DNA from: Delftia sp. PS-11
GTDB lineage: Bacteria; Pseudomonadota; Gammaproteobacteria; Burkholderiales; Burkholderiaceae_C
Length of the DNA: 64,000 bases
Reading direction: 5' to 3'
Assembly (NCBI RefSeq): GCF_029870285.1
Contig: NZ_JACSYA010000002.1
Location: 226,487-290,486 of the forward strand
A program made the translations under genes and the position numbers. Shown here piece after piece: positions 2,946 through 12,149 of the stretch (positions are counted from its first letter, which is position 1; each line of letters starts with the position of its first letter). A model generated the notes under the pieces. That model searched no databases and had not been told where the DNA came from. It saw only the letters and a program-made list of their open reading frames with translations.

Positions 2946-4484
2946 ATGAACAACATTCTGTCCACCCCCCGCCGTCTGGTCCTGGCCCTGGTGGCCGCAG
3001 GTGCCATCGGCGCCCTGGGCGCCACGGGCGCCGGTCTGGTTGGCGCAGTCCACGGCGATGCGCGTGCGACCACGGCGCTGGCGGCGCCTGCGGCCCAGCC
3101 CGCCTCGCAGTTCTCGCCGGCAGGCGCCGTCGCGGCGCCCAACTTTGCCGACATCACGGCGCGCAATGGCGCGGCCGTGGTCAATATCAGCGTGGTCGGC
3201 AGTGCGCGCGCCATGGGCGAGGAGGGCGAAGAGGCTGCTGCGCGCCAGGGCCAGCAGGGCGTGCCCGGCATGGACCCCAGCGATCCTTTCTATGAATTCT
3301 TCCGCCGCTTCGGTGTGCCCGGCATGCCGGGGGCGGGCCAGCCCCAGCGCGATACGCCGGTGCGCGGCGAAGGCTCTGGCTTCATTGTCTCCAGCGATGG
3401 CCTGATCCTGACCAATGCGCATGTGGTGCGCGGCGCTCGGGAAGTTACCGTCAAACTCAATGATCGGCGCGAATTCAGCGCCAAGGTGCTAGGCGCGGAC
3501 CCCAAGACCGATGTGGCCGTGCTGCGCATCAACGCCAGAGACCTGCCCACCGTCACGCTGGGCAAGACCGCCGATCTGCGCGTGGGCGACTGGGTACTGG
3601 CCATCGGCTCGCCCTTTGGCTTCGAGAGCAGCGTCACGGCTGGCGTGGTCAGCGCCAAGGGCCGCAGCCTGCCCGAGGATTCCTTCGTCCCCTTCCTGCA
3701 GACCGATGTGGCCATCAATCCGGGCAACTCCGGCGGGCCGCTGTTCAACGCGCGTGGCGAGGTCATCGGCATCAACAGCCAGATCTACACCCGCTCGGGT
3801 GGTTACCAGGGCGTGTCCTTCGCCATTCCCATCGAGGTCGCCACGCATGTGCAGCAGCAGATCGTGGCCACCGGCAAGGCGCAGCATGCCCGGCTGGGCG
3901 TGGCGGTGCAGGAGGTCAATCAGGCGTTTGCCGACTCCTTCAAGCTGGACCGGCCCGAAGGCGCTCTGGTGGCCAGCGTGGACAAGAACGGCCCTGCCGC
4001 CAAGGCGGGTCTGGAGCCTGGCGATGTGGTGCGCAGGATCGACGGCCAGCCCATCATCGGCTCGGGCGATCTGCCGGCCTATGTAGGCCAGGCACTGCCG
4101 GGCCAGAAGGTCACGCTGGAGGTCTGGCGCAATGGCGAGGCCCGCACGCTGTCTGCCGTGCTGGGGGATGCGGGCGACAAGACCGCCAAGGTGGCCCAGG
4201 ATACGCCCGATGCAGGCAAGGGCCGGCTGGGCCTGGCCTTGCGGCCCCTGCAGCCCGACGAAAAGCAGCAGGTCGGCGTGCAGGCCGGCATGGTCGTGGC
4301 CGATGCGGCCGGGCCTGCCGCCGAAGCGGGCATCGCCCAGGGCGATGTGCTGCTGTCCATCAACGGCGCGCCTGCCGCTGACATCCAGGCCGTGCGTGCG
4401 GCCATGGACAAGGCTGGCAAGACTGTCGCCGTGCTGATCTGGCGCGATGGCAACCGGATTTTCGTGCCCGTGCGTCTGGGCTGA
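2946..4484 (+). CDS. Do/MucD-type periplasmic serine endoprotease
   Basis: The 512-residue protein has a hydrophobic N-terminal segment (about residues 10-35) for export, a trypsin-like domain with His159 (TNAHVV), Asp189 (KTDVAVL) and Ser262 (GNSGGPLF), and two C-terminal PDZ domains (about 290-385 and 415-505). This is the DegP/DegQ/MucD layout: ATP-independent degradation and chaperoning of misfolded periplasmic proteins. A Gly/Pro/Met-rich insert at about 100-140 resembles the LA loop. RBS GAGGAAAGG precedes the ATG. It stands alone, convergent with nothing. A short direct repeat of CTCGCCTAAG lies upstream near 2875. Which of the Do paralogues it is cannot be settled here. Confidence 0.9.
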   Translation: MNNILSTPRRLVLALVAAGAIGALGATGAGLVGAVHGDARATTALAAPAAQPASQFSPAGAVAAPNFADITARNGAAVVNISVVGSARAMGEEGEEAAARQGQQGVPGMDPSDPFYEFFRRFGVPGMPGAGQPQRDTPVRGEGSGFIVSSDGLILTNAHVVRGAREVTVKLNDRREFSAKVLGADPKTDVAVLRINARDLPTVTLGKTADLRVGDWVLAIGSPFGFESSVTAGVVSAKGRSLPEDSFVPFLQTDVAINPGNSGGPLFNARGEVIGINSQIYTRSGGYQGVSFAIPIEVATHVQQQIVATGKAQHARLGVAVQEVNQAFADSFKLDRPEGALVASVDKNGPAAKAGLEPGDVVRRIDGQPIIGSGDLPAYVGQALPGQKVTLEVWRNGEARTLSAVLGDAGDKTAKVAQDTPDAGKGRLGLALRPLQPDEKQQVGVQAGMVVADAAGPAAEAGIAQGDVLLSINGAPAADIQAVRAAMDKAGKTVAVLIWRDGNRIFVPVRLG

Positions 4485-4811: not shown

Positions 4812-5216
4812 ATGAGCTTGGAAAACACTCTGGGGCAAATAGTGGGCACCGTGCCCGAATGCGTGGCCATCGGATATGTCGATGCTGCCTCGGGAATGCT
4901 GCTGGGCATGCGCACGGTGGATTCCCACCCGCGCGAGGTGATTGATCTGGTGGCTGCTGCCACAGCCGACCTGTTCAACGGCCCGAATGTGTCGATGATC
5001 GAAAGCCTGTTCAAAAGGGCCAGGGGCCTGCAAAGCGATGGGCACCACTACTTTCAGGAGCTGATTGTCAACAGCGACAACCTGATCCATGTGTTTTTGC
5101 GTGGCAAGCAGACTCCCGACTACATTGCCGTCTTTGTGTGCCGCCGCACCGCCAATCTGGGCATGGCGTTGACCAAGGCGCGCATGGCAATGCCCCAGAT
5201 CGAAGCGGCCGTCTGA
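4812..5216 (+). CDS. Roadblock/LC7-like small protein, copy 1
   Basis: This 134-residue soluble protein has the alternating pattern of a roadblock/longin-type alpha/beta fold: a first helix, a strand pair ECVAIGYVDAASGMLL (16-31), a helix region starting at PREVIDLVAAATADLF (40-55), then FQELIVNSDNLIHVFLR (79-95) and a closing helix at 112-134. I assign roadblock/LC7 only by pattern. Bacterial members are scaffolds or partners of small GTPases (MglB type) or sensory proteins. A second copy at 6988-7392 differs at roughly 16 of 134 positions by eye, and the ABC-phosphatase fusion lies between them. Start chosen at the ATG after GGGAGAA. No GTPase is nearby. Function unknown. Confidence 0.7.
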   Translation: MSLENTLGQIVGTVPECVAIGYVDAASGMLLGMRTVDSHPREVIDLVAAATADLFNGPNVSMIESLFKRARGLQSDGHHYFQELIVNSDNLIHVFLRGKQTPDYIAVFVCRRTANLGMALTKARMAMPQIEAAV

Positions 5217-5383
5217 TGGCATGGCGCTATGGCTCTGGCCGCGCCGTGGCGATCGCATTCCGGGCTGCAAACACCCGCCGCAATGTGGCCTTGGAAGCTA
5301 TTCGAGACGGCTTACGTTAAAGCAACACCCATTTGCGATAGTAGTGTTTCTTTTTGTGACGATTTGATCTAGGGCAAACCGCT

Positions 5384-5389
5384 TAGACT
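5384..5389 (+). promoter_or_regulatory. -10-like element before the ABC-phosphatase gene
   Basis: TAGACT within CGCTTAGACTGCC closely matches the element before roadblock copy 1 (CGCCTAGACTGCG). The TTGATC at 5364-5369 is only 14 bases upstream, short for a -35. The similarity of the two sites suggests that both genes are read from related promoters. Weak, pattern-based. Confidence 0.35.
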
Positions 5390-5475
5390 GCCGGCCCGTC
5401 AAGCCTGCGCTGGCTGTCTCGGGTTCACCCATGAACAAGCGGTCCTGGAGGGCCACATATCGCATCACAGGAGGC

Positions 5476-6954
5476 ATGGCATTGAAGCACGACTACAGCT
5501 TGCAGGTGGCAGGTTTGGGCGCCTCGTTTGGTGCGCGCGTCATTCTGGCAGAGGCGGATTTCACGCTGCCTGCGCGTGGCATCACGGCGCTGCTGGGGCC
5601 TTCCGGATCGGGCAAGTCCACGCTGCTGCGCACGCTGGCCGATCTCAATGCCGCCAATCCGCGTTTTCGCCGCTGGGGCAGTGTGCGCTATGCGGGCCAG
5701 CCGTGGAGCCGTGGCATGCCTGCGCCGCGCCTGGTGCAGCAGCAGGCCCGGCTGATGCTGGCCAGCACCTTCGACGCCATCGTGGAGCTGGCCAGGCCCC
5801 GGCTCAAGCTGGTGCCGCATGCGCTGCGGGACTGGTGCCAGGAACAGCTGCAGGCCTTCGGCTTTCCGGAGCTTGGGTCGGTGCTGGACCGGCCTGCACT
5901 GGAGCTGTCTGCCGTGCAGCAGCGTGCCGTGGCGATATTGCGCGAGGCGCTGGCCGAGCCCGCCCTGCTGATGGTGGATGAGCCCACGGCGGAGTTGCAG
6001 GGCTACGATGCCTTTGTGCTGCTGGAGTTGCTGAGCCAGGTGGCCCAGCGCACGGCCGTGCTGATGAGTACGCACCAGCAGCAGCATGCCCAGGCCGTGG
6101 CGCAGGACATGCTGCTGCTCGCAGGGGGCCGCATTGCCGAGGCGCAGTCCATGGAGGCTTTCTTGCATGCGCCGCTGTCGCTGGCAGGCCAGCAATTCGT
6201 GCGCACCGGCAGCTGCTGCGTGCCTTCCCCGGATGCACGGGCCGAGGACCTGGAGGAGGGCATGCCTTTGCCGCCCCCCCTGCCAGCAGCGGCGCTGGCG
6301 GCCATCTCTGAATTCCAGGCAGACGGGCAGGCTTCGCAGGCCTTGGCCGCTTCGCCTGCCGCACCCGCCATGCCAGAGCCTGTGGCAACCCCTGCCGCTG
6401 CGCCGCTGCCGCGTCCTGTCAAGCCTGCCGTGCTCGCGGACTGGGCGCCGCTGGCCGCCGATCCCCAGGCCGTGCCCGCCAGCCGTGGCCCCGGCGGCTT
6501 CGCCTGGCTGGTGCCTGGCCGGCTGGCAGGCACGCCCCTGCCCGGCGTCGTGCATTCCGTGGATACCGATCTGCAGGCGCTGCGCCGCTGCGGCGTCACC
6601 ATGCTGATCACCCTGACCGAGAAAGACCTGCCCCAGGAGCCTCTGCTGCGCCACGGCCTGCGCAATCTGTACCTGCCGGTGCGCGACCAGGAGCCGCCCA
6701 CGGTGGCGCAGATCCAGATGCTGCTGGCACGCATGTCGGCCATGCTGCGCGCCGGCGAAGTGCTGGCCGTGCATTGCCTGGCGGGGCTGGGGCGCACAGG
6801 CACGGTGCTGGCCGCCTGGCTGGTGCGTGAGGGCCTCACCGCCCAGGAAGCGCTGCGGCGCGTGCGCCTGATCGATGCCCAGTATGTGCAGTCGCAGGCA
6901 CAGGAAGACTTGCTTCACGCCTACGAGGCAGCCTTGCTGCAGAAGATGGGCTGA
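5476..6954 (+). CDS. ABC-ATPase fused to a dual-specificity protein phosphatase
   Basis: Two enzymes in one chain of about 492 residues. Residues 10-235 are an ABC ATPase resembling PstB-type subunits: Walker A GPSGSGKS (41-48), Q-loop region VQQQ (87-90), Walker B LLMVDEP (164-170) and H-loop His200. The signature is degenerate, LSAVQQ (144-149) in place of LSGGQ. A Pro/Ala-rich linker (about 247-340) leads to a phosphatase domain with general acid Asp404 (PVRDQEPP) and the P-loop HCLAGLGRTGT (Cys434, Arg440), the Cys-x5-Arg hallmark of tyrosine/dual-specificity phosphatases. No membrane segments and no permease nearby, so transport is unlikely. Two roadblock-like genes flank it. Start uncertain: AGGAGG at 5469-5474 is one base from ATG 5476, seven from TTG 5482; ATG 5431 is also in frame. 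Substrate unknown. Confidence 0.85.
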   Translation: MALKHDYSLQVAGLGASFGARVILAEADFTLPARGITALLGPSGSGKSTLLRTLADLNAANPRFRRWGSVRYAGQPWSRGMPAPRLVQQQARLMLASTFDAIVELARPRLKLVPHALRDWCQEQLQAFGFPELGSVLDRPALELSAVQQRAVAILREALAEPALLMVDEPTAELQGYDAFVLLELLSQVAQRTAVLMSTHQQQHAQAVAQDMLLLAGGRIAEAQSMEAFLHAPLSLAGQQFVRTGSCCVPSPDARAEDLEEGMPLPPPLPAAALAAISEFQADGQASQALAASPAAPAMPEPVATPAAAPLPRPVKPAVLADWAPLAADPQAVPASRGPGGFAWLVPGRLAGTPLPGVVHSVDTDLQALRRCGVTMLITLTEKDLPQEPLLRHGLRNLYLPVRDQEPPTVAQIQMLLARMSAMLRAGEVLAVHCLAGLGRTGTVLAAWLVREGLTAQEALRRVRLIDAQYVQSQAQEDLLHAYEAALLQKMG

Positions 6955-6987
6955 CCGGATATTTCAAAACTACAAAGGAAAGTATCG

Positions 6988-7392
6988 ATGAGTTTGGACA
7001 ACGTTCTGAGCGAAGTGGTGGGCTCGGTGCCCGAGTGCCTGGCCATTGGCTATGTGGATGCGGCCTCCGGCATGCTGCTGGCCATGCGCACCGTGGACTC
7101 CCATCCGCGCGAGGTCATCGACCTCGTGGCGGCTGCCACTGCCGACCTGTTCAACGGACCGAATGTGTCCATGATCGAACGCCTGTTCAAGAAGTCGCGC
7201 GGCCTGCAGGACGATGGCCACCATTACTTCCAGGAGATGATCGTCAACAGCGACAACCTGATCCATGTTTTCCTGCGCGGCAAGCAGATGCCGGACTATG
7301 TGGCGGTTTTCGTCTGCCGCCGCACGGCCAATCTGGGCATGGCGCTGACCAAGGCGCGCATGGCGATGCCAAAAATCGAGGCGGCGGTGTAA
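6988..7392 (+). CDS. Roadblock/LC7-like small protein, copy 2
   Basis: Paralogue of the protein at 4812-5216, same length (134 residues). The central stretch from SHPREVIDL to SMIE and the NSDNLIHVFLRGKQ segment are unchanged, while the N-terminal 20 residues carry about seven of the roughly 16 substitutions. Codon choice has drifted at many synonymous sites, so the duplication is not recent and both copies appear to be under selection. The gene starts 33 bases after the ABC-phosphatase stop behind an AAAGGAAAG ribosome site, hence probably co-transcribed with it. The response regulator begins 34 bases downstream. Possible hetero- or homodimerisation with copy 1 is inference. Confidence 0.7.
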   Translation: MSLDNVLSEVVGSVPECLAIGYVDAASGMLLAMRTVDSHPREVIDLVAAATADLFNGPNVSMIERLFKKSRGLQDDGHHYFQEMIVNSDNLIHVFLRGKQMPDYVAVFVCRRTANLGMALTKARMAMPKIEAAV

Positions 7393-7426: not shown

Positions 7427-8101
7427 ATGCGGTTATTGCTGGTTGAAGACGATGCCATGATCGGCGAGGCCGTGCACACGCTGCTGCGCGGCGAAGGCCA
7501 TGTGGTGGACTGGGTGCGCGATGGCCTGCAGGCCGATGCAGCCCTGCGCGCAGGCCCCGGGCAGGGCCATGGCTATGACCTGGTGCTGCTGGACCTGGGC
7601 CTGCCGGGGCAGGACGGGCTGCAGGTGCTGCGCCAGCTGCGTGCGCGCCGCGACCGCACGCCGGTGCTGGTGGCCACGGCCCGCGATGCCGTGCGCGACC
7701 GCATTGCCGGCCTGGATGCCGGGGCGGACGACTACGTGGTCAAGCCCTACGACCTGGACGAGCTGCTCGCTCGGCTGCGCGCGCTGGCGCGCCGCGCATC
7801 AGGTGCCGTGGAGCCGCTGTACGAGCGCGGCGGCGTGCGCCTGAACCCCGCCACGCGCGAGGCCAGTGTCGATGGCTGCGGTGTCGTGCTGTCCGGCCGC
7901 GAGTGGGCGGTGCTGCAGGCGCTGCTGGCGCGGCCCGGCAGCACGCTGTCGCGCCAGCAGATCGAGGACAAACTCTATGGCTGGGGCGACGAGGTCAGCA
8001 GCAACGCCATCGAGGTCTACATTCATGGCCTGCGCAAGAAGCTGGGTGCCGGGCTGATCCTCAATGTGCGCGGCGTGGGCTACATGGTGCCCAAGCCATG
8101 A
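7427..8101 (+). CDS. OmpR/PhoB-family response regulator (QseB/TctD-like)
   Basis: The 224-residue protein has a receiver domain (1-115) with acidic pocket Glu7-Asp8-Asp9, phospho-acceptor Asp56 (LVLLDLGLP) and Lys106 (VVKPYD), followed by a winged-helix DNA-binding domain (about 125-222) ending in the VRGVGYM segment. It is the transcriptional output of the adjacent kinase; the ATGA overlap (8098-8101) shows translational coupling. Closest named groups by eye are QseB, BasR and TctD. Its target genes are not visible; the roadblock/phosphatase genes just upstream are the obvious candidates. Confidence 0.9.
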   Translation: MRLLLVEDDAMIGEAVHTLLRGEGHVVDWVRDGLQADAALRAGPGQGHGYDLVLLDLGLPGQDGLQVLRQLRARRDRTPVLVATARDAVRDRIAGLDAGADDYVVKPYDLDELLARLRALARRASGAVEPLYERGGVRLNPATREASVDGCGVVLSGREWAVLQALLARPGSTLSRQQIEDKLYGWGDEVSSNAIEVYIHGLRKKLGAGLILNVRGVGYMVPKP

Positions 8102-9498
8102 AGGCCCTGCCTGACCGACTGGCCTCCTGGATGCGCGAGCGCCTGCCCGGGGCCCTGGGGGCAAGGCTGCTGCTGTTCATTGGCGCTGCCATCGTGTTCA
8201 CGGCCCTGCTGCAGGGGCTGCTGACCTACCGCAACGCCCTGCTGCAGACCGATATTCTGTTTGACTACCAGATGCAGCAGACCGCTTTCGCGCTGCGTGC
8301 CGGGCTGCCGGTGGATGCGCGCGGCCATCCCGAAGGCACGCCCCCCGAGGATGAAAACCATGACTTCATCGTCCAGGTCTGGACCAATGAAGGGCTGCGC
8401 ATCTTCGAGTCGGCCCTGGGCGCGGCCCTGCCGCAGATGGCCGTGCTGGGCTTTGCCGATGTGCCTGCGCGCGGCACGGTCTACCGCGTGTTTTCGCTGC
8501 AGACACGCTCCCAGGTGATCCAGGTCGCCCAGGACATGCGCGTGCGCCGCGCGCTGGCGCGCGATGCCGCATGGCATGGCCTGCTGCCGATTGCGCTGCT
8601 GGCCCCCGTGCTGGCGCTGGCGGTCTGGTGGGGTGTGCGCCATTCGCTGGCGCCCGTGCAGCGCGTGCGCCGCGAGCTGGCCGTGCGCCAGCCCACCGAT
8701 CTGGCGCCCGTGCCCGCCGATGGCCTGCCAGACGAAGTGCGCCCGCTGGTGGCCGAGTTCAATGCGCTGCTGCAGCGCGTGGCACAGGCCTTCGAGGCCC
8801 AGCAGCATTTCGTGGCCGATGCCGCGCATGAGCTGCGCTCTCCGCTGGCTGCCTTGAATCTTCAGCTGCAGACCTTGCGCCGCGCACCGGACGATGCAGC
8901 CCGTGAAGACGCCGTGCAGCGCCTGGCCCAGGGGCTGGAGCGCGCCACGCGCCTGGTCGAGCAATTGCTGGCACTGGCGCGGCAGGAAGCCCGGCAGGCG
9001 GCTGCACAGACGCTGCCCCTGGTGGATCTGGGCGATGTCGTCACCCAGGCCCTTGCCGACACGGCGGTGGCCGCGCAGCAGCGCGGCCTGGACATGGGCA
9101 TCAGCGAGTCGCCCGCGCTGCAGCAGCCGTTTGCCGTGCCCGGCGATGCCCATGCCCTGCAGATGCTGGTGCGCAACCTGCTCGACAACGCCATCAAGTA
9201 TGTGCCCGAGGGCGGCCGCGTCGATGTGGGCTGGCGCAGCGATGCGGCAGGCCGGGCCCTGATCGTGGAAGACTCGGGGCCCGGTATTCCCCAGGAGCAG
9301 CGCCCGCAGGTGCTGCGGCGCTTCGTGCGGGGACCGTCCGCCAGCCAGCAGGCCGGCGGCAGCGGCCTGGGCCTGGCCATCGTGCAGACCATTGCCGAAC
9401 GCCATGGCGCCCGCCTGCTGCTGGACCGCTCCCCCTCGCTGGCGGGGCTGCGGGTGCAGATTGTCTGGCAGGCGGCTGTCACTGTAGCAGGCGAATAA
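8098..9498 (+). CDS. Sensor histidine kinase (QseC/TctE-like)
   Basis: The 466-residue inner-membrane kinase has transmembrane segments at about 22-43 and 160-180 enclosing a periplasmic sensor of some 115 residues, a HAMP-like connector, the H-box AHELRSPL with His244, and an ATP-binding domain with N-box (NLLDNAIKY), G1 (DSGPGIP) and G2 (GSGLGLAIV). Start set at ATG 8098, which overlaps the regulator stop; a longer reading upstream would run inside the regulator gene. The signal is unknown. The kinase probably responds to a small periplasmic ligand, as in the QseC/TctE group. Confidence 0.9.
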   Translation: MKALPDRLASWMRERLPGALGARLLLFIGAAIVFTALLQGLLTYRNALLQTDILFDYQMQQTAFALRAGLPVDARGHPEGTPPEDENHDFIVQVWTNEGLRIFESALGAALPQMAVLGFADVPARGTVYRVFSLQTRSQVIQVAQDMRVRRALARDAAWHGLLPIALLAPVLALAVWWGVRHSLAPVQRVRRELAVRQPTDLAPVPADGLPDEVRPLVAEFNALLQRVAQAFEAQQHFVADAAHELRSPLAALNLQLQTLRRAPDDAAREDAVQRLAQGLERATRLVEQLLALARQEARQAAAQTLPLVDLGDVVTQALADTAVAAQQRGLDMGISESPALQQPFAVPGDAHALQMLVRNLLDNAIKYVPEGGRVDVGWRSDAAGRALIVEDSGPGIPQEQRPQVLRRFVRGPSASQQAGGSGLGLAIVQTIAERHGARLLLDRSPSLAGLRVQIVWQAAVTVAGE

Positions 9499-9613
9499 CA
9501 ACCATCGCCCAGGCATTACCGTGTCCGGTACACAATGCTCACAGCGCGCTATTTCCCCGCGTGGCGTGCGCAATCACCCCTGCCGTTTTCAGAAATCACA
9601 AGAGGTCCTTGCC

Positions 9614-10645
9614 ATGGAGTCCGTTGTTCAGCGCCTGTCCCAGTCCCTGGCCCAGGCGCAATCGCTGGAAGAACTCACGCGCCCGATGCTGCAGATGCTG
9701 GAGGAAGCCACGCAGCTGGCCTCTACCTACCTGACCACGGTCGATGAGGCAAAGGGTGTCCAGCAGGTGCTGTTCGCGCGCAATGCGCAGCAGATGCAGA
9801 TTCCCGAAGGTCTGGTCGTCCCCTGGGGCGATACGCTGTGCAAACGGGCCATTGACGAGGGCCGCATGTACACGCCCGATGTCGGCCAGTGCTGGGGTGA
9901 CTCCGAAGCCGCGCGCGAGCTGGGCATACGCACCTATGCGAGTGCGCCTGTGCGCTTTTCCGATGGCCGGCTCTACGGCACGCTGTGTGCCGCCAGCGAC
10001 AAGCCCATGCCCGTGGGCCTGGAAGCGCAAAGCATGCTGAGCCTGTTTGCCAAGATACTTTCCGAGCGCCTGGAGCGCGAGCAGCTCATCGTCACGCTGA
10101 AGCAGCGCAACCAGGAACTGGCGGCCATGGCCCTGCTCGACCCGCTCACAGGCGTGCCCAACCGCCGCTGCCTGACCGAAGAGCTGCAGCGCCTGATCGC
10201 CCGGTGCGCGCGCAGCCAGGAGTGGGTGGTGGTCGGCTTCGTGGACATGGACCATTTCAAGCGGGTCAACGACGTATATGGCCATGATGCTGGCGATGCG
10301 CTGCTGTGCGCGATGAGCGAGCGGCTGACTGCCAGCGTGCGCAGCAGTGACATGCTGGCGCGTTTCGGCGGTGACGAGTTCGTGCTCATCGGCGTCGGGC
10401 CGCTGCTCGGCGACGATGCTGACGCGGTTGCGTGCGACCTGCAGCAGCGCCTGACGGCCGCATCGGCATTCCAGCTCGACCTGCCCGATGGCCGCTCGCT
10501 GGACTACAGCGGCGCCAGTGTCGGCGTGGTGTGCCTGCGCGCCGATGCCACAGATGCCGGCGATGCCCTGCAAAAAGCCGACGCCGCCATGTACCGCGTG
10601 AAGCTGGCGCGCACAGGCGCCAAGGGGCAGTCGGCCCTGCACTGA
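9614..10645 (+). CDS. GAF-GGDEF diguanylate cyclase
   Basis: The 343-residue cytosolic protein has a GAF-type sensor (about 15-155, with CWGDSEAARELGI and YGTLCAAS segments) and a GGDEF domain (170-335). The active-site motif GGDEF is intact at 252-256, and the inhibitory I-site RSSD sits at 243-246, five residues upstream, so product feedback inhibition is expected. It makes cyclic di-GMP from two GTP. The ATG at 9614 is chosen, with AAGAGG upstream; the region before it is not conserved-looking. It follows the two-component pair by 115 bases and is probably transcribed separately or by readthrough. The ligand of the GAF domain is unknown. Confidence 0.9.
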   Translation: MESVVQRLSQSLAQAQSLEELTRPMLQMLEEATQLASTYLTTVDEAKGVQQVLFARNAQQMQIPEGLVVPWGDTLCKRAIDEGRMYTPDVGQCWGDSEAARELGIRTYASAPVRFSDGRLYGTLCAASDKPMPVGLEAQSMLSLFAKILSERLEREQLIVTLKQRNQELAAMALLDPLTGVPNRRCLTEELQRLIARCARSQEWVVVGFVDMDHFKRVNDVYGHDAGDALLCAMSERLTASVRSSDMLARFGGDEFVLIGVGPLLGDDADAVACDLQQRLTAASAFQLDLPDGRSLDYSGASVGVVCLRADATDAGDALQKADAAMYRVKLARTGAKGQSALH

Positions 10646-10652
10646 GCGCGCC

Positions 10653-10877
10653 TCAGCCCTGGTGCAGCCTTTTCATCAGGCCGCGCCGGGCCATGCGCAG
10701 GGCGCGCGCATCGGCATCGGCGCGGCTGCCGCAGGGCTCGTCGTCGGAGACGGCATCGAGCGCAGTGCCTGTGGCGGCATCCTCCAGCCGTGCGCAGGGC
10801 ATCCACTGGCCAGGCTGTGACGGGTTTTCAAAGGAGTCTGGCGTGATGCGCACGCCCATGTAGAGATGGCTTTGCAT
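10653..10877 (-). CDS. Small hypothetical protein
   Basis: A 74-residue reading frame convergent with the cyclase gene, seven bases apart. It begins MQSHLYMGVRITPDSFENP and ends in a basic tail (RMARRGLMKRLHQG). Charge and codon pattern look coding rather than random, but no family is recognised and no strong ribosome site precedes the ATG. Its start faces the end of the aldo/keto reductase gene about 110 bases away. Confidence 0.45.
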   Translation of the reverse strand: MQSHLYMGVRITPDSFENPSQPGQWMPCARLEDAATGTALDAVSDDEPCGSRADADARALRMARRGLMKRLHQG

Positions 10878-10987
10878 GGCTGTACATGCTACCCCTATGG
10901 TAGTGCGCACCTGCATCTCCAGCCAGTCTGTGGCGTTGCAGCAGAACCAGCCTCTGTCCCGTTGGCGCCGGGCGGCCTGTGCACGGA

Positions 10988-12004
10988 TCAGGCGGCTGCC
11001 GTGAAGGGCACGCGGCCCTCGACGGGATGCCCAGGGTCGGTGAAGCCCGGCGTGGAGGGGTGGCCGGCGGCCACCAGGCGGTCCACCAGGGCTTCGTCCT
11101 CGGCGGTGAAGCGGTATTCCAGCGCTTTCACATAGCCTTCCCACTGCTCGGGCGTGCGCGGCCCTGCGATGGCCGAGGTCACCAGCCGGTTGTTGAGCAC
11201 CCAGGCCACGGCGAAGTCGGTGGTGCTGATGCCGCGCTCGGCCGTGTGGCGGCGGATCTGCTCGGCGATGTCCAGCGATTCGGGGCGCCATTCGGTCTCC
11301 AGCAGGCGCTTGTCCTTGCGCGCCGCGCGCGAGCCGGCTTCTGGCTCGGCGCCTGCGGGGTACTTGGCGGTCAGCACGCCGCGCGCCAGCGGGCTGTAGG
11401 AGACCACGCCCAATCCATAGGCTGCTGCTGCGGGCAGCTGCTCTGCCTCTGCCGTGCGGTTGACGATGTTGTAGAGCGGCTGGCTTGCGATGGGGCGGTC
11501 GATGCCTTCAGCATCGGCCAGATGGGAGACTTGCGCGATGCGCCAGCCACGGAAGTTGGAGACGCCGAAGTAGCGCAGCTTGCCTGCGCGGATCAGGTCC
11601 CCGATGGCGCGCACGGCCTCTTCCAGCGGCGCATCGAAGTCTGCGCGGTGAAAGTACAGCAGATCAATGTAGTCTGTGCCCAGGCGGCGCAGGCTGGCTT
11701 CCACGGACTCGATGATCCACTTGCGCGAGGTGCCCCGGCGGTTGGGGCCTTCGCCCAGCGGATTGCCGAACTTGGTGGCCAGCACCCAGTCGTCGCGGTG
11801 GGCCCGGATGCCCCGGCCCACGACTTCCTCGGTCACGCCTTTCTGGTAGACATCGGCCGTATCGATGAAGTTGATGCCCTGGCTGCGCGCGCGCGCGATG
11901 ATGGCGTGGGACGTGGCCTCATCGGTGGGGCCTCCGAACATCATGGTGCCCAGTGCGAGGCGGGAGACTTTCAGGCCGCTGCGGCCCAGGTAACGGTAGC
12001 TCAT
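10988..12004 (-). CDS. Aldo/keto reductase
   Basis: The 338-residue TIM-barrel oxidoreductase has the catalytic tetrad in order: Asp and Tyr in DTADVYQKG (about 48-55), Lys in ATKFG (about 80) and His in LLYFHRADF (about 120), with the C-terminal NADPH-binding segment SAIAGPRTPEQ. It reduces carbonyl substrates with NADPH. ATG at 12004 is four bases after the stop of a severed ABC-transporter gene (12009-12149), the spacing of an old operon. The longer frame upstream is only a shadow of that remnant. Substrate unknown. Confidence 0.9.
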   Translation of the reverse strand: MSYRYLGRSGLKVSRLALGTMMFGGPTDEATSHAIIARARSQGINFIDTADVYQKGVTEEVVGRGIRAHRDDWVLATKFGNPLGEGPNRRGTSRKWIIESVEASLRRLGTDYIDLLYFHRADFDAPLEEAVRAIGDLIRAGKLRYFGVSNFRGWRIAQVSHLADAEGIDRPIASQPLYNIVNRTAEAEQLPAAAAYGLGVVSYSPLARGVLTAKYPAGAEPEAGSRAARKDKRLLETEWRPESLDIAEQIRRHTAERGISTTDFAVAWVLNNRLVTSAIAGPRTPEQWEGYVKALEYRFTAEDEALVDRLVAAGHPSTPGFTDPGHPVEGRVPFTAAA

Positions 12005-12008
12005 GGAG

Positions 12009-12149
12009 TCAGCTTTCTGCTTGCGTGGCGGTGAAGGGGACAGGGGTGCGCGCTGGCACACGGGCGGGCGCCTGCACCACCGCCTCCTCGGGGTGGTGGC
12101 AGGCCACGAAGTGGCCGTCTGCCGCGCGCTCCAGGGCTGGCTTCTGCGC
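12009..12149 (-). pseudogene. 3' remnant of an oligopeptide ABC transporter ATPase gene
   Basis: On the minus strand 46 codons and a stop encode QKPALERAADGHFVACHHPE and a Pro-rich tail. The pattern Ala-Leu...Gly-His-Phe-Val-Ala-Cys-His is the characteristic extreme C-terminus of OppD/OppF/DppD/DppF ATPases. No start codon is available: an in-frame TAA lies four codons upstream of the recognisable part, and the Walker motifs are absent. The rest of the gene has been deleted, together with any permease genes. The aldo/keto reductase starts four bases after the stop, indicating a former operon. Confidence 0.7.

Follow-up and report, generated by a model that had tools for sequence, protein, structure and literature searches.

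In the stretch of DNA analyzed here (64,000 nucleotides, positions 226,487 to 290,486 of contig NZ_JACSYA010000002.1 of Delftia sp. PS-11; referred to as the window), a gene encoding an ABC ATPase domain joined to a dual-specificity phosphatase domain is located between two genes of roadblock-like proteins, named here RB1 and RB2 (collectively RB). Comparison with other genomes shows that the fusion and RB form a conserved cassette, in which the fusion gene almost always stands beside a roadblock-type gene of its own. In our assessment, the chances are about even that the fusion and RB constitute an accessory switch-and-output module of MglA-type GTPase signaling, the full form of which is present in mgl operons of the Group 3 type. 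The original prediction, made from the letters of the window, was right in its first observation and understated it, the arrangement being a conserved cassette; its interpretation was half right, and the mechanism and substrate discussed below are inferred.

Conservation of the Fusion-RB Cassette

The cassette was traced by way of both the fusion and RB. The counts for the genus are those of genomes selected by the fusion, and all fusion counts are lower bounds, as at most 7, 29 or 4 ABC candidates per genome were scored. In the genus, at least 32 of 53 genomes encode the fusion, and RB adjoins it in 31 of the 32, while the contig of the remaining one, G521, stops within the ABC part. Selection by the fusion in the class (369 genomes) yielded at least five new fusion genomes, all five with an adjoining RB. 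The use of the Derxia RB protein as a query led to 34 named loci, 28 of which have an adjacent fusion gene (with a broken frame in L127). As for the rest, two have a partial fusion at a contig end (L130, L149), three begin at the RB gene, with the fusion side outside the sequence (L125, L126, L153), and one, from a Myxococcales bin (L152), has no fusion. In the searches of the family and order with RB, an adjacent fusion was found in 24 of 29 places besides the two copies of the window; the other five are L015, with a 32-residue ABC remnant, L029, L030, L032 and L033. RB itself was found in 24 of 299 family genomes and in 5 of 200 order genomes, the genome of the window being counted in both. 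The gene order in the cassette is either fusion-RB or RB-fusion. The linkage of roadblock genes to the fusion, on which the original prediction depended, is conserved.

Certain loci deviate from this pattern. In L086 (7446-8090; G490:C1:3955000-3970000), RB is preceded by a 32-residue ABC match, which is probably a remnant of a deleted fusion gene, and by a chemoreceptor match. Matches of PAS-type chemoreceptors, named by eye, adjoin the cassette in L068, L084, L086, L100 and L143. A diverged cassette is present in L103 (5289-6905; genome G163), with the phosphatase part at 37%, and a nearby gene of this locus encodes a 538-aa protein, the C-terminal part of which is a Ras/Roc-like GTPase of another kind.

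Linkage and Co-Occurrence with MglA-Type GTPases

In 14 of the 34 named loci, a gene of a winged helix-turn-helix (wHTH) protein and a gene of an MglA-type small GTPase lie directly upstream of the fusion gene, and a gene of the Robl_LC7 type follows RB. The wHTH and Robl_LC7 matches were obtained in all 14, although in L123 the latter is situated further downstream. The 14 loci represent two Derxia, two Nitrosomonadales, two Curvibacter, a Methylotenera, an Oceanospirillaceae bin, Parathalassolituus, four Gammaproteobacteria bins and a Proteobacteria bin; RB is doubled in four of them. The GTPase and fusion frames overlap or almost touch in several loci. The wHTH and GTPase genes also accompany the fusion in four of the five genomes of the class search.

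The G5 motif of these GTPases follows the pattern D-A/G/P-R in 16 of the 19 rows compared (one repeat, L102/L121, included); L097 has CDAR, as judged by eye, and L103 lacks the pattern. The NKxD pattern is present in 1 of the 19. Group 3 MglA proteins of beta- and gamma-proteobacteria have been described by Wuichet and Sogaard-Andersen in 2014 (PMC4316618) as having DAR at G5 and frequently missing the G4 lysine, and their gene neighbors in the same account include a protein with receiver-like and wHTH parts and one or two MglB. Given the G5 and NKxD patterns together with the wHTH and MglB-type neighbors, the cassette of these relatives sits between mglA and mglB in what look like Group 3 systems.

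The genome of the window also encodes an MglA-type GTPase. A wHTH - MglA - Robl_LC7 operon without the cassette is present on contig C23, with gene neighbors of the kind expected in a Group 3 system, while the cassette is on C22, so that the two are separate operons. The wHTH match of the C23 operon is weak, and its MglA is 44% identical to the GTPase of L097 over 172 residues; the operon additionally encodes the Robl_LC7 protein (1.7e-7) and a 119-residue roadblock-like protein. Across the genus, 29 of the 53 genomes gave an MglA-type GTPase: 29 of the 32 fusion-positive ones and none of the 21 fusion-negative ones (Fisher 6e-12). Judged by its coordinates, the GTPase is not close to the fusion in any of these 29 genomes, being located either on a different contig or at a large distance. 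Two of the three fusion-positive genomes without MglA are incomplete (87% and 59%), and the third, G529, is complete. The 119-residue protein, in 37 genus genomes, occurs in 21 of 22 fusion-positive vs. 0 of 15 fusion-negative ones. Among family genomes from outside the genus, 10 of 19 RB-positive vs. 24 of 275 RB-negative ones have the GTPase (Fisher 5e-6), G346 being dropped from the family counts because of a match of 26% identity and E 8.8e-4.

The original prediction assumed that a small GTPase is absent here and that the ABC ATPase may take its place. This fails as a general rule, because MglA-type GTPases are linked to the cassette in 14 of the 34 named loci, encoded on C23 of the own genome and present in 29 of the 32 genus genomes. 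A more restricted form of the idea is that in Comamonas and in other genomes without a linked GTPase, the ABC ATPase is itself the nucleotide switch and is regulated by RB, the phosphatase being the output. Cassettes of two genes with no GTPase gene beside them are frequent in the family, nine RB-positive genomes lack MglA at E 1e-8, of which seven (G202, G323, G325, G331, G332, G348 and G409) have the fusion next to RB, and the loss of the ABC signature described below fits a binding switch. However, the full operons carry the GTPase and the Robl_LC7 protein in addition, and an unlinked MglA-type GTPase is retained in the own genome and in 28 further species of the genus that have the fusion, which makes this alternative, in our view, rather unlikely.

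Several observations weigh against the assignment of the cassette to MglA-type signaling. The fusion counts are lower bounds, and RB occurs without an intact fusion in 5 of 29 places and in 1 of the 34 named loci. The G5 motif of the own GTPase is DVR, not DAR. A close match to that GTPase (69-100%) was found in just four of the 29 genus genomes (the own one, G133, G484 and G495), while the GTPases of the other 25 are only 30-37% identical to it and may therefore belong to another MglA group. The tests of co-occurrence ignore shared ancestry. No MglA was found at E 1e-8 in 9 of the 23 RB-positive family genomes (G346 dropped), and therefore the cassette can live without that GTPase. Finally, RB may serve other NTPases, because a distant RB relative sits among dynamin genes in two Ruegeria plasmids.

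The Fusion Protein

The fusion is encoded by a single open frame, 5431-6954 on the + strand. Its probable start is ATG 5476 or TTG 5482, as a Shine-Dalgarno-like GGAGG is present ahead of both at 5470-5474, and codon 5482 aligns with the first Met of the relative P0004; ATG 5431 is a less likely alternative. The promoter and terminator scan was uninformative (1 and 2 sites vs. 0.7 and 3.1 expected). Pfam matches lie on both sides of the linker (ABC_tran 3.2e-16, PTP-SAK 2.6e-20, Tc-R-P 7.5e-20 and DSPc 1.4e-8), in agreement with the reported joining of an ABC ATPase to a Cys-x5-Arg phosphatase through a Pro/Ala-rich segment. The predicted structure comprises two confident domains, residues 1-290 and 338-492, with disordered residues 295-337 between them. 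The Pfam scan gave no membrane domain, no dedicated membrane predictor being used. The possibility of a sequencing or frameshift artefact was considered and is ruled out, because 74 frames of other loci hold both domains, even if two of them (L079, L127) have a break on the N-terminal side; the fusion is likewise not unique to this genome. This count, and that of 72 frames used below, includes five repeats resulting from contigs fetched twice (L102/L121, L075/L128, L094/L138, L090/L141 and L095/L137).

The Walker A, Walker B and H-loop (H200) named in the original prediction are all present in the ABC domain. Among 24 aligned sequences, the Walker A Lys and the Q-loop (Q89) are kept in 24 and the H-loop in 23. 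What that prediction omitted is the loss of the LSGGQ signature. The canonical LSGGQ was found at the signature place in 0 of 72 ABC ORFs with readable motifs, most of which have L-[S/P]-x-x-x-Q-R instead; two LSGGQ pattern matches (L065, L066) fall near residue 70, away from that place. As a small control, the FbpC ATPases of L080 and L081, two sequences from the same loci, retain LSGGQ. ABC ATPases complete the ATP site of each subunit with the signature of the other, and therefore a homodimer of the fusion should bind ATP and hydrolyze it slowly. The absence of LSGGQ throughout suggests that the ABC domain of the fusion is an ATP-binding switch rather than a transport motor. In the fusion of L151 (a Giesbergeria bin), the Walker B Glu, the H-loop His and the phosphatase Asp404 are all lost and HCx5R is kept; this sequence is the sole exception behind each count of 23 of 24.

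A transport function would mean that the fusion is an ATPase of a PstB-like or Fbp-like transporter, the permease of which is encoded elsewhere, and that the phosphatase regulates uptake. The nearest ABC profile and fold are indeed those of PstB (the best NCBIfam profile, TIGR00972, scores 99.7 bits, below its cut-off of 343.2), and some relatives of the window locus have an FbpB-like permease close by: in L080-L082, L091 and L106-L111 its gene stands immediately before the cassette, and in L062-L064, L074, L075 and L128 it is found at a greater distance upstream. However, in L080-L082, L091 and L106-L111 the permease is accompanied by a divergent FbpC gene of its own, and in L080 and L081 this FbpC keeps the LSGGQ that the fusion lacks. 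No permease is a constant neighbor in the cassette loci compared, the rest of the genome not being searched for one. In the window, as originally stated, no permease is nearby, none being present among the ten genes Pfam-scanned between 217 and 10645. We therefore regard a transporter ATPase as very unlikely.

The C-terminal domain carries intact dual-specificity phosphatase motifs, and its catalysis on protein phosphate is predicted. The nearest proteins in PDB by sequence are a solved dual-specificity phosphatase family protein (25xa) and then DUSP23. The designation of Cys434 as the catalytic residue is correct in the numbering from start 5476, with C434 and R440 both present, and the general acid Asp (D404) is kept in 23 of 24 aligned fusions. 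The likeness to DUSP23/VHZ phosphatases concerns the sequence and active site of this domain, whereas the solved chains of the latter comprise about 150 residues and no ABC domain. In L152 (3802-5622), an RB relative (56%) occurs without the ABC-phosphatase, and a 606-aa protein with a similar C-terminal phosphatase is encoded nearby on the opposite strand.

The Tc-R-P match and the source name 'phosphatase domain-containing putative toxin' bring to mind a defense or toxin module. These names, however, lie within the phosphatase superfamily, and the domain is found in signaling operons. PADLOC matches are confined to the ATPase part (best mad3 and mad8), and phage records gave no RB match at E 1e-5. 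The chance of such a function seems almost negligible.

Roadblock-Like Proteins

The description of RB1 and RB2 as flanking the fusion and resembling each other holds, although 'nearly identical' is slightly strong for 118 of 134 residues and 335 of 405 bases. A confident roadblock fold was predicted for RB2, and by fold RB1 and RB2 are members of the Roadblock/LC7 superfamily, as had been proposed. By sequence they are not assigned to Robl_LC7: RB1 and RB2 have no Pfam (E 1) or NCBIfam match, and two relatives have none at E 5. Profile comparison of RB with the Robl_LC7 proteins of the operons gave 54% probability, in the C-terminal part only, and the best match of the RB profile to PDB by sequence was an unrelated one (E 0.17). 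The linkage of the genes points to RB as a putative regulator of an NTPase.

The flanking of the fusion by two roadblock genes was found in the window only, among the loci fetched. As the defining architecture it was rejected, since the named relatives with two copies (L127, L133, L143 and L145) hold both downstream.

Other roadblock-like proteins were noted in the course of this comparison. A 119-aa protein (L120:5208-5567) has no Pfam match, is encoded at as many as four sites in single genomes of the genus and has 'VD..SGM.L' in common with RB; comparison of RB with this family gave just a short N-terminal match. Plasmid records contain five distant matches to RB from Ruegeria, 34-37% identical. 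In the two of these plasmids that were inspected (L185, L186; 8001-8402), the RB relative is situated amid four genes annotated as dynamin family as well as protein kinase and FHA genes, once more in the vicinity of large NTPases, and L185 also has a PP2C phosphatase gene near it. An orphan RB without the fusion is present in L104 (7399-7797; G217:C1:3405000-3420000) among genes resembling, by eye, those of phage portal, terminase and primase; its host, G217, also has a full cassette (L087).

Globin/Flavin Proteins as a Candidate Input

In L127 and L144, the product of the gene that follows Robl_LC7 contains a ferredoxin domain, FAD- and NAD-binding domains and a bacterial globin domain; in L101 and L143, it contains a ferredoxin and a globin domain. 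Of the 34 named loci, 17 have a match to this globin/flavin protein close to the cassette, nine of them with the GTPase. In three others (L125, L126, L153) the upstream side is outside the sequence, and in five (L129, L131, L135, L137 and L140, the last with about 670 bases upstream) there is no GTPase within the available sequence. The match covers the globin half only in L129, L132 and L135, and the ferredoxin part only in L137, at a contig end. In the class search, three of the five genomes gave a globin/flavin match. The globin/flavin gene was not found in the own genome, where four matches all fall within the ferredoxin part. We infer that the signal in the full operons is a redox or gas one.

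A globin fused to a roadblock domain, HGbRL, is known from Methylacidiphilum (PMC4476040). As presented there, it couples a heme globin to a roadblock domain, which the operon may do with separate genes; unlike the operon, HGbRL is one fused protein of 274 residues, described in the relevant part of that source without an ABC-phosphatase. In L139 and L147, from the Oceanospirillaceae bin and Parathalassolituus, cbb3 oxidase-like genes (ccoN/ccoO by eye) follow the full operon at ~8900-12100.

Neighborhood of the Cassette in the Window

The features of the window are listed in Table 1. A two-component pair and then a c-di-GMP cyclase follow the cassette, as originally noted, the proteins being a regulator, a histidine kinase and a GAF-GGDEF protein. 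The regulator/kinase/GGDEF neighborhood is limited to part of the genus, with regulator and kinase also present in some family members; the regulator adjoins the cassette in L062-L067, L069-L079, L082, L085, L087, L089, L091 and L128.

Table 1. Features of the cassette and its neighbors in the window.
Feature	Position	Strand	Basis and distribution
MucD/DegP-type serine protease, two PDZ domains	2946..4484	+	Pfam; neighbor in part of the genus and some family members
RB1, roadblock-like, upstream lineage-specific copy, 134 aa	4812..5216	+	ORF; 88% identical to RB2 in amino acids; on a longer branch of the same seven-row clade
ABC ATPase - linker - dual-specificity phosphatase fusion, 492 aa	5476..6954	+	Pfam; model pLDDT 87.5; 74 ORFs elsewhere also join the two domains in a single frame
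ABC ATPase domain, PstB-like fold, residues 1-290	5476..6345	+	Foldseek best PstB 9k3s; NCBIfam best TIGR00972 PstB
Walker A GPSGSGKST, residues 41-49	5596..5622	+	GKS invariant in 24/24 aligned sequences
Degenerate signature LSAVQQR where LSGGQ is expected	5905..5925	+	LSGGQ absent there in 72/72 ORFs with readable Walker B
Walker B LLMVDEPT, residues 164-171	5965..5988	+	D 24/24, E 23/24
Pro/Ala-rich linker, predicted disordered, residues 295-337	6358..6486	+	pLDDT <50; length strongly variable among relatives
Dual-specificity phosphatase (DSP) domain, DUSP23/VHZ-like, residues 338-492	6487..6951	+	PDB sequence matches 25xa 5.9e-24, DUSP23 1.2e-17
PTP loop VHCLAGLGRT (Cys434, Arg440)	6769..6798	+	H, C, R invariant in 24/24; HCx5R in 74/74
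RB2, roadblock-fold partner, conserved copy, 134 aa	6988..7392	+	
Response regulator, OmpR/PmrA type (PmrA/QseB-type)	7427..8101	+	Pfam, NCBIfam; neighbor in part of the genus and some family members
Sensor histidine kinase	8098..9498	+	Pfam, NCBIfam; distribution as for the response regulator
GAF-GGDEF diguanylate cyclase	9611..10645	+	Pfam, NCBIfam; neighbor in part of the genus

This neighborhood raises the alternative that the module acts mainly on the adjacent two-component pair and the diguanylate cyclase, independently of any GTPase. RB2, the regulator and the kinase are closely spaced in the window, and the same neighbors are present in much of the genus. However, none of the 14 named GTPase loci has a MucD or kinase match, and regulator or GGDEF matches there are just weak ones, in L133, L143 and L145, L143 having a kinase and a regulator of other domain make-up. 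Such an action as the main one is thus improbable. Upstream, at 2215-2846, a MazE-type antitoxin (2.3e-7) and a PIN-domain gene are situated between an ArsC-like gene (by eye) and mucD, with no match at the corresponding place in relatives from the genus.

Proposed Mode of Action and Related Systems

In the GTPase-dependent mode of action that we favor, RB would act like MglC or MlaB, as a small adaptor docking on the ABC ATPase, and would probably also dock on MglB/MglA. Under the control of RB and the state of the GTPase, the ABC part would bind ATP, hydrolyze it slowly or not at all, and so be kept closed or open; this state would expose or hide the tethered DUSP23-like phosphatase. The latter may dephosphorylate a partner protein, candidates being the wHTH protein, MglB and a neighboring kinase or regulator. 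In the full systems, the globin/flavin protein would give an O2, NO or redox signal. Taken together, a further-reaching proposal, which we put forward tentatively and with somewhat more doubt than belief, is that of a new class of GTPase signaling complex, in which a soluble ABC ATPase with intact ATP-binding motifs and no signature, as an ATP-gated clamp under an RB adaptor and an MglA-type GTPase, switches the tethered phosphatase on a redox or gas signal of the globin/flavin protein; Comamonas would have lost the globin and kept the cassette beside a two-component/c-di-GMP locus.

MlaB is a small protein that docks on the ABC ATPase MlaF and is not known as a roadblock protein. The MlaF-MlaB pair (PDB 6xgy) resembles the proposed arrangement in this docking, and MlaF is among the Foldseek matches of the fusion, but the pair serves a membrane transporter, unlike the cassette. 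MglC of Myxococcus xanthus (PDB 7ct3; PMC7949163) differs from the cassette in that its description, in the relevant part of the source, includes no ABC-phosphatase. The actinobacterial conservons, or G protein systems (CvnA-D; PMC13343842), are similar in that, as outlined there, a roadblock protein, an MglA-type GTPase, a small extra protein and a phospho-signaling enzyme are encoded in one operon; a histidine kinase stands in place of the ABC-phosphatase. Group 3 MglA systems share with the full operons the wHTH protein, the DAR-type MglA without the G4 lysine and MglB, and their taxa overlap; neither an ABC ATPase, a phosphatase or a globin protein nor a roadblock partner invisible to Pfam is listed in section 18 of the relevant paper (PMC4316618).

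The original statement that no system of this architecture has been described agrees with our search, as no description of the fusion or the cassette was recognized in open PMC full texts, which is weak evidence, given that subscription papers and supplements were outside its scope. A survey of the rhodanese-phosphatase superfamily by Burroughs and Aravind may mention the architecture; it was not found in the literature search.

Significance

The roles of Group 3 MglA systems are little understood. In the case of Snodgrassella, an orphan Group 3 mglB has been linked to bee-gut colonization (PMC11112851). The cassette and its mgl operon context point to an undescribed branch of bacterial GTPase signaling, in which the new element, compared with known MglA/roadblock signaling, is the ABC switch with the phosphatase. 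It would be an unusual non-transport use of an ABC ATPase, and the small size of this genetic system leaves these ideas open to testing by deletion. For a subset of mgl systems, the cassette offers candidates for missing parts, namely, an output phosphatase, a second nucleotide switch and a globin/flavin input.

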